From contig CASFDA010000025.1 of the NCBI GenBank assembly GCA_949293335.1, positions 1 through 41,224 of the forward strand: a stretch of DNA of 41,224 nt. The letters run 5' to 3'. A program made the translations under genes and the position numbers. Each line of letters begins with the position of its first letter. Within the stretch, counting starts at the first letter, position 1. This document shows positions 5,113 to 30,986 of this stretch, one piece after another. The notes under the pieces are model-generated. The model saw only the letters and a program-made list of their open reading frames with translations, was not told where the DNA came from and made no database searches. The DNA comes from an uncultured Spirochaetales bacterium (GTDB lineage Bacteria; Spirochaetota; Spirochaetia; Sphaerochaetales; Sphaerochaetaceae).

Positions 5113-5159
5113 GTGGTAAAGGATAGCACAAAAACAGAAAAATGATCATTTGCCAATTA

Positions 5160-7913: not shown

Positions 7914-7922
7914 ATTATAACA
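7914..7922 (-). promoter_or_regulatory. Extended -10 promoter for the OsmC-family gene
   Basis: TGT-TATAAT on the minus strand overlaps the last codons of the flavoprotein gene. It ends 7 nt before the ATG at 7906, and no good -35 is seen at 17 nt, as expected for an extended -10 promoter. Confidence 0.55.
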
Positions 7923-10837: not shown

Positions 10838-10945
10838 AATTTCCCTCAAATGTTTTGTAGCTCTATTCTATGCTCAAAAAGGGATATGGGAAAGTAAGCA
10901 AAGACAAATGTTCCAAATGTCGATAATGATTTAGAATCTGATTTG

Positions 10946-12359: not shown

Positions 12360-14225
12360 GTAGAGTTTCCTGAGTCCGTCCTCAATCATTCTGTTGATAG
12401 TATTGGGAGGAAACTGTCCCTTTGCGTTCCTCTCTCCGCTTTCCATGCCGGAAAGGAGTTCCATGCCATCATCGACGCTCTCTATCGCCCAGATGTGGAA
12501 AACACCGCGCTTGATAGCATCTTCGATCTCGTAAGGGAGGATGAGGCTCTGTATGTTCTTTTCCGGAATCACGACACCCTGTTCCCCTGTGAGCGTTGTT
12601 GACAGACAAGCTTTGTAGAAACCTTCGATCTTCTCGTTGATCCCTCCCACAGGCTGTATGTGTCCCATCTGGTTCACAGATCCTGTTATTGCGATATCCT
12701 GCCTGATCGGAATGGACCCGATTGCACTCAGGAGTGCAAATAGCTCTGCACCTGACGCGCTATCACCGTCAACTTCCGCATAGCTCTGTTCGAAACAGAT
12801 TCCCGCATAAAGGGAAAGGGGGAAAGTTTTTGCATATCGGTGTCTGAGATACCCTTCGAGGATCAACAGACCTTTGTCATGTATTCCTCCGGAGAGGCCC
12901 GCCTCGTGTTCGATGTTCACTATTCCTTCGTTCCCGGGTGCGCATGTAGCGCTTATTACTGCAGGACTGCCGAAGGATGAAAGTCCTCGGTCTATGACTG
13001 CCAGACCATTTGCGATGCCTGTCTTTTTCCCACTTAGGGAGACTATCAGGTCACCACGCTTTATTTCCCTGTTGATCTGTTCTTCTGTCAGCGATGAGAT
13101 GTATGACCTTTCCTTGATTGCGTCTCTCACATCTTCTTTATCGATGCTTGATTTCTTCTTCTTTCTTGCCGTCATGTCAGCTTCGAGTTCAAGGTCTCCA
13201 AGGAATGAGAGCTGACTGGTAAGCATGTCCCTGTCCTCTGCGAACCATGAAGAATAACGGAGGATTTCCGATATCGCGTCGTCTGAAAGTGGCAGTAGGT
13301 TCTTGCTGTTCTTTCGCAGATACCAGACTGTATCCTTGATGTTCTTCTCGTTTCGCTCCATGCTGAAATCGAATTCGGGAGAGATCCTGAAGAGCCGGAG
13401 GAACTCCCGATCTTTTTCTGCCAGTTCATCGTAGGTCTCATCGCTTCCGATAAGTATTACTTTCGTGAGCTGTCTTATCGGGCTCGGGCGCACATTCTTC
13501 AATAGTTCACCTTGTACTGATGTCCCGCGTTTAGCCATTTCAGACATCGATATGTACCTTTTCAAAGTGGTCCAGAGTCCCTTCTCCTGCATCAGTTCTT
13601 CTGCATTGAGTATCAGATAGCCGCCAGATGCCAGCTGATAGCTACCGAGCCTTATCGCGAGGTGCGCGCTTTTGTTTTCCTCGATGAAGCCAAACAGTGA
13701 GTCATGAGACGGATGTGTTTCTATCAATGTTGGTCGCTTCTGTGTGTTGCTCCTGTCGAGTACGAGATTTACTCTGTATGCATCCGGGAAGTTCTCTTTT
13801 TCAGGAAGGTAAGATAGGAAGAAAGCGACTTCCTCATATGGAAAGGTTTCAAGGAACTCATCTTTCTCGATTTTCTTCTCTCCAAGACGCATAAGCATCT
13901 CTTCGAATTTCCTGCCAGTTCCTTTTGCTAGTGATATTGAAATGGGATTCATCGGATTGTAGCCGTTGTAGACATATAGCGCATCAAAAAGTTGGCTCTT
14001 GTCGTTCTCAACTTCCTTGATCGCCATCATCACGCTGTGGTGACGTGCGCTCGAATCTTCCCCGCTTACAAAGATGTTGTAGCCCGATTTGTCTATGGAA
14101 AGCCCCAGCGAGAGTGCTCTCATGGCCCTTTCCTGTCCTACTATCCTGTCTTCTTCGCCGATTCCGCTCTCATCTATCTTCAATGGAGGAAGAATCACAT
14201 CCTCCCATTTCAGCTCTCTGACCAT
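12339..14225 (-). CDS. Lon-like (LonC/AAA_32-type) serine protease with a degenerate P-loop
   Basis: A 628-aa protein with the Lon S16 protease domain at the C-terminus: catalytic Ser489 in EVDGDSASGAE and Lys532 in GGINEKIEG. The N-terminal part aligns in layout with the AAA_32 Lon-like family (ILPPLKIDESG start, IVGQERAMRALSLGL, YNIFVSG at about 49-55). Where a Walker A GxxGxGK[ST] should follow, the sequence is GEDSSARHHSV, with no P-loop lysine. The Walker B position reads GGYLILNAEEL. Nucleotide binding is therefore doubtful, as in the ATP-independent LonC proteases. The start is well supported: TTGACA-N17-TACATT ends 6 nt before the ATG, with no SD, suggesting a leaderless mRNA. The 3' end overlaps the convergent methyltransferase gene by 21 bp. 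Confidence 0.9.
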   Translation of the reverse strand: MVRELKWEDVILPPLKIDESGIGEEDRIVGQERAMRALSLGLSIDKSGYNIFVSGEDSSARHHSVMMAIKEVENDKSQLFDALYVYNGYNPMNPISISLAKGTGRKFEEMLMRLGEKKIEKDEFLETFPYEEVAFFLSYLPEKENFPDAYRVNLVLDRSNTQKRPTLIETHPSHDSLFGFIEENKSAHLAIRLGSYQLASGGYLILNAEELMQEKGLWTTLKRYISMSEMAKRGTSVQGELLKNVRPSPIRQLTKVILIGSDETYDELAEKDREFLRLFRISPEFDFSMERNEKNIKDTVWYLRKNSKNLLPLSDDAISEILRYSSWFAEDRDMLTSQLSFLGDLELEADMTARKKKKSSIDKEDVRDAIKERSYISSLTEEQINREIKRGDLIVSLSGKKTGIANGLAVIDRGLSSFGSPAVISATCAPGNEGIVNIEHEAGLSGGIHDKGLLILEGYLRHRYAKTFPLSLYAGICFEQSYAEVDGDSASGAELFALLSAIGSIPIRQDIAITGSVNQMGHIQPVGGINEKIEGFYKACLSTTLTGEQGVVIPEKNIQSLILPYEIEDAIKRGVFHIWAIESVDDGMELLSGMESGERNAKGQFPPNTINRMIEDGLRKLYSHANKS

Positions 14226-14231
14226 AGAGAA

Positions 14232-14260
14232 AATGTAATGTCATGATCACATGCTGTCAA
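14232..14260 (-). promoter_or_regulatory. Strong predicted promoter of the Lon-like gene, leaderless arrangement
   Basis: Minus strand: consensus TTGACA (14260-14255), 17-nt spacer, TACATT (14237-14232), then six nucleotides and the ATG at 14225. The predicted transcription start coincides with the start codon. Confidence 0.7.
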
Positions 14261-14271
14261 ACAGTGATGAA

Positions 14272-14300
14272 TTCCAAAACGGATTCGATTGTGCTATCGT
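14272..14300 (+). promoter_or_regulatory. Predicted promoter of the Nif3-like operon, leaderless arrangement
   Basis: TTCCAA (14272-14277), 17-nt spacer, TATCGT (14295-14300), then six nucleotides before the ATG at 14307. No SD is present. Confidence 0.45.
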
Positions 14301-14306
14301 TTTTGT

Positions 14307-15062
14307 ATGGACTTAAATGGATTTTCGAAGTTCATGGAGGAGAAGCTAAATATCTCTTCTTTTGAAGATGTTTCTAAGAATGGTATTCAGATTGAGTGCT
14401 CTGCAAAAGAGATCAGGAAAGTTGCCTTCGCAGTCGATGCCAATCTCGATACTATTACTCGTGCAAGTGAAAGTGGTTCAGATGTGCTCTTTGTCCATCA
14501 TGGGATATTCTGGCGCGATGTCGAGAGGATCACCGGGAGTCACTACAAAAGGATACAGAAAGCTATAACAAGTGATATGGCTCTCTTTGCTGTACATCTT
14601 CCTCTTGATGCACACCCTGTCTATGGAAATAATGCGCAGATGGCTCTTCGCCTCGGGATGGAGGGGTATGATCCGTTCGGCTCATTCATGGGATCTTCTG
14701 TCGGTTTCAAGGGCAAGTTGCCTTTCCCGATGACGAGTGCCGAGATAGCAAGGATCTTAGGCTTCTCGCCCAGTACGGGGCTGAGGATAATTGATAATCG
14801 CTCAGATATGATTTCAAATGTCGCCATTGTCTCTGGTTCAGGCGGAGACGATGCGATCGATGCTTTCAATGAAGGTCTTGATGCCCTTATTACAGGAGAT
14901 ATGCCATATGAGATTGCCTCCTTTGTACAGGAACATGACTTTGCTGTCATTCAAGGAGGACACTACAGGAGCGAAGTCTTTGGTGTGAGTGCGATGAAGA
15001 GGGTAGTTGAGAAAGAGCTGGGGCTTGAGACCGTATTTCTGGAAGAGGACATGGTACTATGA
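14307..15062 (+). CDS. Nif3-like dinuclear metal-centre protein (YbgI/DUF34 family)
   Basis: A 251-aa member of the NIF3/YbgI family, toroidal hexamers with a two-metal site whose cellular reaction is still debated. Family motifs are visible: NGIQIEC near the N-terminus, SGSDVLFVHHGIFW (HH metal ligands about residue 62), FAVHLPLDAHPVYGNN (H and D ligands) and the C-terminal DALITGDMPYE and VIQGGHYRSE (H and E ligands). No middle PII-like insertion is present, so this is the short bacterial form. The ATG at 14307 lacks an SD and follows a -10-like hexamer by 6 nt. It overlaps lspA by 4 nt (ATGA), starting an operon that includes the signal peptidase. Confidence 0.9.
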   Translation: MDLNGFSKFMEEKLNISSFEDVSKNGIQIECSAKEIRKVAFAVDANLDTITRASESGSDVLFVHHGIFWRDVERITGSHYKRIQKAITSDMALFAVHLPLDAHPVYGNNAQMALRLGMEGYDPFGSFMGSSVGFKGKLPFPMTSAEIARILGFSPSTGLRIIDNRSDMISNVAIVSGSGGDDAIDAFNEGLDALITGDMPYEIASFVQEHDFAVIQGGHYRSEVFGVSAMKRVVEKELGLETVFLEEDMVL

Positions 15063-16797: not shown

Positions 16798-16841
16798 TTG
16801 TCAGCTTTCTCTAATCCGGGTAGGGGCTCTAGCATTTGGGG

Positions 16842-18642: not shown

Positions 18643-18671
18643 CATGAGAGAAAATACGATAGACTTTCAGC

Positions 18672-19451
18672 ATGAGATGGACGACGAATTGGAAAAACAA
18701 GGATCCGTACTTAGTGGCAGTATATGTCATACTCCGGCTTCTTGTTGTCCTGATCATAGTCAATCAGGCTAGGAACGGAAATTATGAGAATGTGTTCTAT
18801 GGTCTAATTGCCTTGATTCTGTTCACGCTTCCGTCATATTTTGAACATAGATTCATCATCGATATTCCTGATACGCTGGAAGCCATAATACTAATTTTCA
18901 TATTCGCTGCCGAGATACTGGGTGAGATAGGGGCCTATTACCAGAAGGTTCCTTTCTGGGACACGATGCTTCACACAGTCACCGGTTTTCTCTCTGGCGC
19001 CATAGGCTTTTCCCTTGTGTCTTTGCTGAATAGGGAAACGGACAGTTTCAATCTTTCCCCTTTTTACCTTGCATTCGTCTCTCTCTGCTTTTCGATGTTC
19101 ATCGGCGTGATGTGGGAATTCATCGAGTTCTTATTCGACTGGTTTCTCTCCACAGACATGCAGAAGGATACTATAATAAATACTATAAACACGGTTCTTC
19201 TCGATGAGAGCAAGACCAATACGGTTGTCCATTTGAGGAATATTACCGAAGTCAGTGTGAATGGCATGGACCTCGGAGTAGGTGGGTACATCGATATAGG
19301 ACTCATCGATACGATGAAGGATCTGGCGGTGACTTTGCTTGGATCGGTTTCCTTCTCTGTTTTCGGTTACTTCTACGAAAGATCCTATCCAAATGGTAAA
19401 CTGGTTTCAAACCTGATCCCCAAGGTCAGGAAGGAAGAGGAAGAGAAATGA
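18672..19451 (+). CDS. Multi-spanning membrane protein, DUF2238/YjdF-like
   Basis: A 259-aa protein with about six membrane segments: 16-33, 42-56, 65-80, 102-118, 133-153 and one near the C-terminus. Motifs resembling the DUF2238 (YjdF) family are FWDTMLHTVTGFLSGAIGF and MFIGVMWEFIEFLFDWF, then DIGLIDTMKDLAVTLLG. The family has no established function. There is no SD before the ATG, and TAGACT ends 6 nt upstream, so it may be leaderless. The stop overlaps the next start as ATGA (19448-19451), coupling it to a probable outer-membrane protein. Confidence 0.8.
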   Translation: MRWTTNWKNKDPYLVAVYVILRLLVVLIIVNQARNGNYENVFYGLIALILFTLPSYFEHRFIIDIPDTLEAIILIFIFAAEILGEIGAYYQKVPFWDTMLHTVTGFLSGAIGFSLVSLLNRETDSFNLSPFYLAFVSLCFSMFIGVMWEFIEFLFDWFLSTDMQKDTIINTINTVLLDESKTNTVVHLRNITEVSVNGMDLGVGGYIDIGLIDTMKDLAVTLLGSVSFSVFGYFYERSYPNGKLVSNLIPKVRKEEEEK

Positions 19452-24927: not shown

Positions 24928-24933
24928 AAACTG

Positions 24934-24985
24934 AATAATCAGCATAGATTTTCTTCTTGTCAATCGGACTTCTCTCTCCTAAAGT
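24934..24985. promoter_or_regulatory. Face-to-face divergent promoters sharing one -35 hexamer
   Basis: Plus strand: TTGTCA (24957-24962), N17, TAAAGT (24980-24985), N6, ATG of the glycerophosphodiesterase at 24992. Minus strand: TTGACA (24963-24958), N18, ATTATT (24939-24934), N6, ATG at 24927. The two -35 elements occupy the same bases offset by one, so only one polymerase could bind at a time. Confidence 0.65.
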
Positions 24986-24991
24986 ACGACT

Positions 24992-30945: not shown

Positions 30946-30986
30946 AGATAAGAATTGTATCAGGAAAAACGGGGGAACATCATGCC

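Follow-up and report, generated by a model that had tools for sequence, protein, structure and literature searches.

Does a spirochaete of the family Sphaerochaetaceae transcribe some of its genes directly from the start codon? The question is raised by several genes in the window, by which we mean the whole analysed stretch of 41,224 nucleotides. The window is contig C25 of a 1.92 Mb genome that is 99% complete; a 16S gene is absent from the assembly (GCA_949293335.1). A preliminary description had noted genes there with no Shine–Dalgarno (SD) sequence and a −10-like hexamer at a nearly fixed, short distance from the ATG, and had read them as leaderless. We consider it very probable, at roughly 93%, that the SD-less, −10-led genes are genuine leaderless genes, with the A of the ATG as the predicted transcription start.

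Candidate promoters in the window

The ten hexamers of the preliminary description are all present where it had placed them and at the distances it gave, and an SD 4-mer precedes none of the ten starts. The elements are as follows, with positions in the window:

14255..14260, minus strand: −35 TTGACA of the Lon-like (LonB/LonC-type) gene, 6/6 match to consensus, 17-nt spacer
14232..14237, minus strand: −10 TACATT of the Lon-like gene, 6 nt before ATG 14225
14295..14300, plus strand: extended −10 TATCGT (TGC precedes) of the Nif3/DUF34 gene, 6 nt before ATG 14307
7914..7919, minus strand: extended −10 TATAAT (TGT precedes) of the OsmC-like gene, 7 nt before ATG 7906
10932..10937, plus strand: −10 TAGAAT of rsmI, 8 nt before ATG 10946
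24958..24963, minus strand: −35 TTGACA of the zinc-ribbon gene, sharing bases with the −35 of the divergently oriented GDPD gene
24935..24940, minus strand: −10 GATTAT of the zinc-ribbon gene, 7 nt before ATG 24927
24957..24962, plus strand: −35 TTGTCA of the GDPD gene, 5/6 match, 17-nt spacer
24980..24985, plus strand: −10 TAAAGT of the GDPD gene, 6 nt before ATG 24992
18660..18665, plus strand: −10 TAGACT of the gene at 18672, 6 nt before ATG 18672
5120..5125, minus strand: extended −10 TATCCT (TGC precedes) of the GltD-like gene, 7 nt before ATG 5112
30954..30959, minus strand: −10 TACAAT of an orphan gene, 8 nt before ATG 30945
16830..16835, plus strand: TAGCAT, 6 nt before ATG 16842

A −35 element 17 nt further upstream had been claimed for several of these genes, and it is there for the Lon-like (TTGACA), GDPD (TTGTCA) and zinc-ribbon (TTGACA) genes; the gene at 18672 has a −35-like TGGAAA (4/6) at the same spacer. 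A good −35 is missing from the Nif3, OsmC and GltD-like genes, which have an extended −10 (TGC or TGT) instead. For the zinc-ribbon gene the position of the hexamer was right, but the reading ATTATT was not the best one: we prefer GATTAT, at a gap of 7 and with TTGACA at a 17-nt spacer, because the orthologues read TTGACA-N17-GATATT-N6-ATG. At start 16842 the hexamer is in place but the case is weak, with G at −1 and a single orthologue. The rsmI gene of the window is atypical in its gap of 8 and its G at −1, whereas its orthologues are typical.

Pfam backs the names LonB/LonC-type, DUF34/NIF3, OsmC, GDPD and TP_methylase (rsmI); it gives no family for the gene at 18672 and does not support the label DUF2238-like. 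The nearest named relatives of the Lon-like protein belong to Candidatus Ornithospirochaeta and to uncultured Spirochaetaceae/Spirochaetales (54–63% identity).

Some of these promoters lie in very compact surroundings. The −35 elements of the divergent GDPD and zinc-ribbon genes share the same 7 bases (24957–24963), and the two divergent pairs in the window that have two leaderless promoters are separated by 64 nt (24928–24991) and 81 nt (14226–14306). Four such pairs, of 66–81 nt, occur in the genome sample described below. Divergent leaderless/leaderless pairs are in slight excess (4 versus 3.3 and 9 versus 5.6), a difference of no demonstrated significance. The conserved promoter of the OsmC-like gene (7914–7919) sits within the 3′ end of the gene that precedes it in the same direction.

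A positional peak of TANNNT across the genome

The genome was sampled over 735 kb (45% G+C), made up of 380 kb of contig C13, pieces of 20 further contigs and the window. Genes were called by dicodon score with a simple, uncurated caller that takes the first in-frame ATG as the start, giving 647 genes and 202 SD-less intergenic first-ATG starts. The SD criterion was a 4-mer match, and the upstream region had to be non-coding for 60 nt (70 nt in a stricter variant). GTG and TTG first starts, at which no peak was found in this genome, were left out of the counts.

The preliminary description had staked its reading on a genome-wide count of TANNNT at each distance upstream of the ATG, with the lack of a peak as evidence against it. 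The count gives a sharp peak at a gap of 6 nt and a smaller excess at 7–8: TANNNT occurs 2, 33, 16 and 10 times at gaps 5, 6, 7 and 8, respectively, on a background of 4.48 per position (for gap 6, 33 versus about 4.5 expected, Poisson p = 4.8e-18). With at least 70 nt of non-coding sequence upstream, which makes the set slightly smaller, gap 6 holds 29 cases versus 4.0 in dinucleotide shuffles, and the maximum that 300 shuffles reached at whichever gap was 14. In a set of starts for which the first ATG had to match the coding signal, there are 28 cases at gap 6 versus 3.7 expected. No peak was found at ATGs within genes, and SD genes have 0–1 TANNNT at gaps 6–8 (421 kb sample), so that the peak is limited to SD-less starts. 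Four congeners (G001, G010, G016 and G226) give the same peak. Curated starts would refine our percentages, and are unlikely to remove the peak at gap 6.

The near-emptiness of gap 5 is what would be predicted if transcription began at the A of the ATG, since a promoter one base nearer would start within the codon. TANNNT is a degenerate pattern, which together with weak examples such as 16842 might suggest that a pattern-seeking reader had simply selected chance hexamers. As a general account this is scarcely credible, being refuted by the genome-wide statistics and by the conservation described below, but it may hold for single genes: because of the degeneracy, chance should supply about 4 of the 33 gap-6 cases, and no individual gene that lacks orthologues is proven.

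Signature of the predicted promoter and start site

Three further features, none of which was used in selecting the genes, accompany the hexamer. The first is the base at −1, a pyrimidine in 39 of 40 gap-6 and gap-7 genes of the window's genome. In five genomes of the genus taken together, pyrimidines occupy this position in 89/96 leaderless-type genes (93%) versus 129/257 SD genes (50%; Fisher p = 7e-15). The initiator context of TA-led genes, with a pyrimidine at −1 and a purine at +1, is thereby found at the start codon. The second is a TTGACA-like −35 (at least 4/6), present at a 17-nt spacer in 27% of cases versus 0–12% at other spacers. The third is TGn before the −10, found in 32/96 cases (33%) versus 11/207 (5%) of control TANNNT elsewhere (p = 5e-10, the same five genomes); in the window's genome it goes mostly with a poor −35 (11/24 versus 1/16). 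Together, the −1 pyrimidine, the −35 at spacer 17 and the TGn are the marks of a predicted sigma-70-type promoter.

These features bear on two other explanations. AT-rich hexamers could reflect an effect of translation or composition, such as unstructured start regions or S1-binding sites, rather than promoters, and the AT-rich upstream bias of non-SD genes has indeed been read as translation-related (PMC5397173). Such an effect predicts neither the −1 pyrimidine nor the −35 at spacer 17 nor the TGn; moreover, the signal is limited to gaps 6–8 with gap 5 nearly empty, and dinucleotide shuffles fail to reproduce the peak. We regard it as very improbable.

A closer competitor holds that the mRNAs are near-leaderless, either because transcription starts 1–5 nt before the ATG or because the true start codon is situated downstream of the called ATG. 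The count at gap 8 exceeds expectation (10 versus 4.5), and in Leptospira about half of the class with 0–10 nt leaders starts at 0–1 nt and the remainder further upstream (PMC5243855). Against short leaders, gap 6 is the most frequent, start positions are conserved between orthologues, and the −1 pyrimidine is tied to the ATG in both sets, at 93% for gap 6 and 93% for gap 7, which argues that the start is fixed on the A while the −10 spacing shifts by one base. We regard short leaders as unlikely, and genuinely leaderless transcription is the reading that we prefer.

Several other analyses were less informative. Distal promoters gave no clear signal of a pyrimidine at −1 and a purine at +1, probably because the set of distal candidates is too impure. 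A search for the −10 motif by unconstrained EM drifted to local optima other than a −10 (TTTCAT-like in this genome), and its estimates were discarded. Folding of the first 40 nt differed only slightly (−3.7 versus −4.3 kcal/mol) and was not used as evidence. Codon bias is slightly lower in leaderless than in SD genes (p = 0.002), a comparison on which we do not rely because its reference set was itself chosen by SD.

Conservation among orthologues and switching of mode

The promoter arrangement is conserved within the genus, in as many as about 30 genomes. Orthologues were scored for a −10 with A at position 2, T at position 6 and at least 4/6 matches to TATAAT, at a gap of 6–8, and all counts, including those of the zinc-ribbon and Lon-like sets, exclude the window's own gene. 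Such a −10 precedes 25 of 25 nif3 orthologues, all with a pyrimidine at −1, 19/19 OsmC orthologues (mostly TGCTATAAT), 19/19 rsmI orthologues (many TGTAGAAT at gap 6–7), 24 of the 26 Lon-like orthologues, 15/16 zinc-ribbon orthologues and 11/16 orthologues of the gene at 18672. At other gaps these sets average fewer than one match per gap. The −35 of the Lon-like gene is kept upstream of most orthologues in the genus, and the TTGACA-like element and GATATT are kept upstream of the zinc-ribbon gene. Two genes differ from this pattern: 7 of 19 GDPD orthologues are leaderless-like and 9 of 19 carry an SD 4-mer, and the GltD-like orthologues divide into 4/13 leaderless-like and 9/13 SD-led. Since both sets are split within one genus, the mode of initiation can apparently switch.

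Two observations concern the Lon-like gene. In four orthologues (L011, L113, L114 and L119) the codon that follows the −10 at the usual distance is GTG rather than ATG, and these would be leaderless GUG starts. In many congeners (L005–L016, L106–L121) a conserved TAATCCACA/TATTCCACA-like element lies between the −35 and the −10; it resembles a DnaA box or the site of another regulator, and is missing from the window's copy (14226–14306).

Frequency and spread

Frequency was estimated from the excess, over gaps 6–8, of hexamers with A at position 2, T at position 6, at least 4/6 matches and a pyrimidine at −1. By this measure transcription appears to begin at the A of the ATG in at least about 7% of genes in the window's genome; among genes that have an intergenic start region to themselves, the share is at least about 15%. 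The corresponding lower bounds in the four congeners are 5–11% of genes and 11–19% of intergenic starts. Among the predicted leaderless genes are secA, lon, recO, hprK and those for the large subunit of ribonucleotide reductase and DNA polymerase IV, so that the mode would serve ordinary housekeeping genes.

Raw whole-genome counts of TATAAT before ATG take in coding sequence and are only indicative; in every one of 20 genomes of the genus they are higher at gap 6–7 than at gap 3–4 (sums 1458 and 846), and at gap 6–7 they are about four times those of the reversed pattern. Six genomes of another genus (g17, family f14) resemble the window's genus, with 1012 and 584. In three genomes of family f27 gap 6–7 is little above gap 3–4 (1586 and 1448), and in three of family f16 the count does not exceed that of the reversed pattern (351 versus 374). 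Samples from other families (G223, G211, G028, G024 and G104) allow no firm claims because of their small size.

It is possible, though we put it at somewhat under even odds, that leaderless initiation is old and conserved gene by gene across much of the Spirochaetia, that it is strict for AUG in this genome and faint or absent in the small, AT-rich family f16, and that the GltD-like and GDPD genes have switched mode.

Proposed mechanism and its implications

We propose that a housekeeping-type promoter directly abuts the start codon, its TANNNT −10 being aided by one of two further elements, a TTGACA-like −35 with a 17-nt spacer or the TGn of an extended −10. Hexamer position, −1 base, promoter elements and conservation are read from the DNA; from these we infer that the actual +1 would be the A of the ATG, just after a pyrimidine, and that the mRNA would begin with 5′-AUG and lack an SD. 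Translation would then presumably proceed by direct binding of the ribosome to the 5′-terminal AUG, as in other bacteria. The leaderless reading of the preliminary description is thus borne out by the positional peak, the pyrimidine at −1 and A at +1, the −35 and extended −10 elements and the genus-wide conservation, and its view that SD-led and leaderless modes coexist holds as well, both being present in one genome.

These findings would add a genus of uncultured spirochaetes, largely gut-associated, to the bacteria with leaderless expression. The conserved leaderless genes provide a concrete list for testing, and those with both leaderless and SD-led orthologues open the evolution of initiation mode to direct study; if an old, gene-by-gene mode with switching is true, the group would lend itself naturally to observing such switches. 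There is also a consequence for annotation, in that start prediction reliant on SD sequences will misplace leaderless starts.

Comparison with known systems

TANNNT-led, strictly leaderless genes are known alongside SD genes in Mycobacterium and other Actinobacteria, where both AUG and GUG are used. The window's genome differs in that its peak is found for ATG only, whereas some Lon-like orthologues in other genomes have GTG. In Deinococcus deserti, de Groot in 2014 reportedly described the same −10 motif adjacent to ORFs. The arrangement is that of D. radiodurans, in which TANNNT centred 6–7 bp ahead of the ORF proved to be the −10 of leaderless genes, alongside GGAG-led genes (PMC12340547). 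Nearly one third of Deinococcus genes have the motif; the spirochaete value, about 7% of genes or 15% of intergenic starts, is a lower bound but well below that frequency. Unlike what is given for Deinococcus, a share of the spirochaete's predicted leaderless promoters have an extended −10 or a −35 resembling TTGACA.

Work with GeneMarkS-2 assigns 21.6% of bacterial species to a class for which leaderless transcription is predicted (PMC9581028). For 6 of 18 Spirochaetes genomes, Zheng (2011) predicted leaderless genes, at 1.8–6.9% of genes, and defined TA-led genes as we do, by a TA-like signal about 10 bp upstream (PMC3160421). Our estimate of about 7% lies at the upper end of that range, and the genus, to judge from the text, was not part of that set. 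In Leptospira interrogans, of the same phylum and another class, dRNA-seq placed the transcription start no more than 10 nt from the start codon in 430–450 genes, of which 170–184 start exactly on it (PMC5243855). Transcripts were measured there, whereas the starts here are predicted from sequence; conversely, the Leptospira study gave no −10 motif beyond sigma-54, and the genome studied here has a clear −10 and −35.

The preliminary description knew of no such genes described for this lineage. This holds for the genus in the searchable literature, where we found no paper linking "leaderless" with Sphaerochaeta and, judging by titles and abstracts, none under "leaderless" and Treponema that concerned transcription starts. 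For the phylum it does not hold, given the predictions for 6 of 18 Spirochaetes and the approximately 440 leaderless or near-leaderless mRNAs mapped in Leptospira. The predicted leaderless genes described here follow a known way of starting genes, one that is newly described for this genus and well supported.
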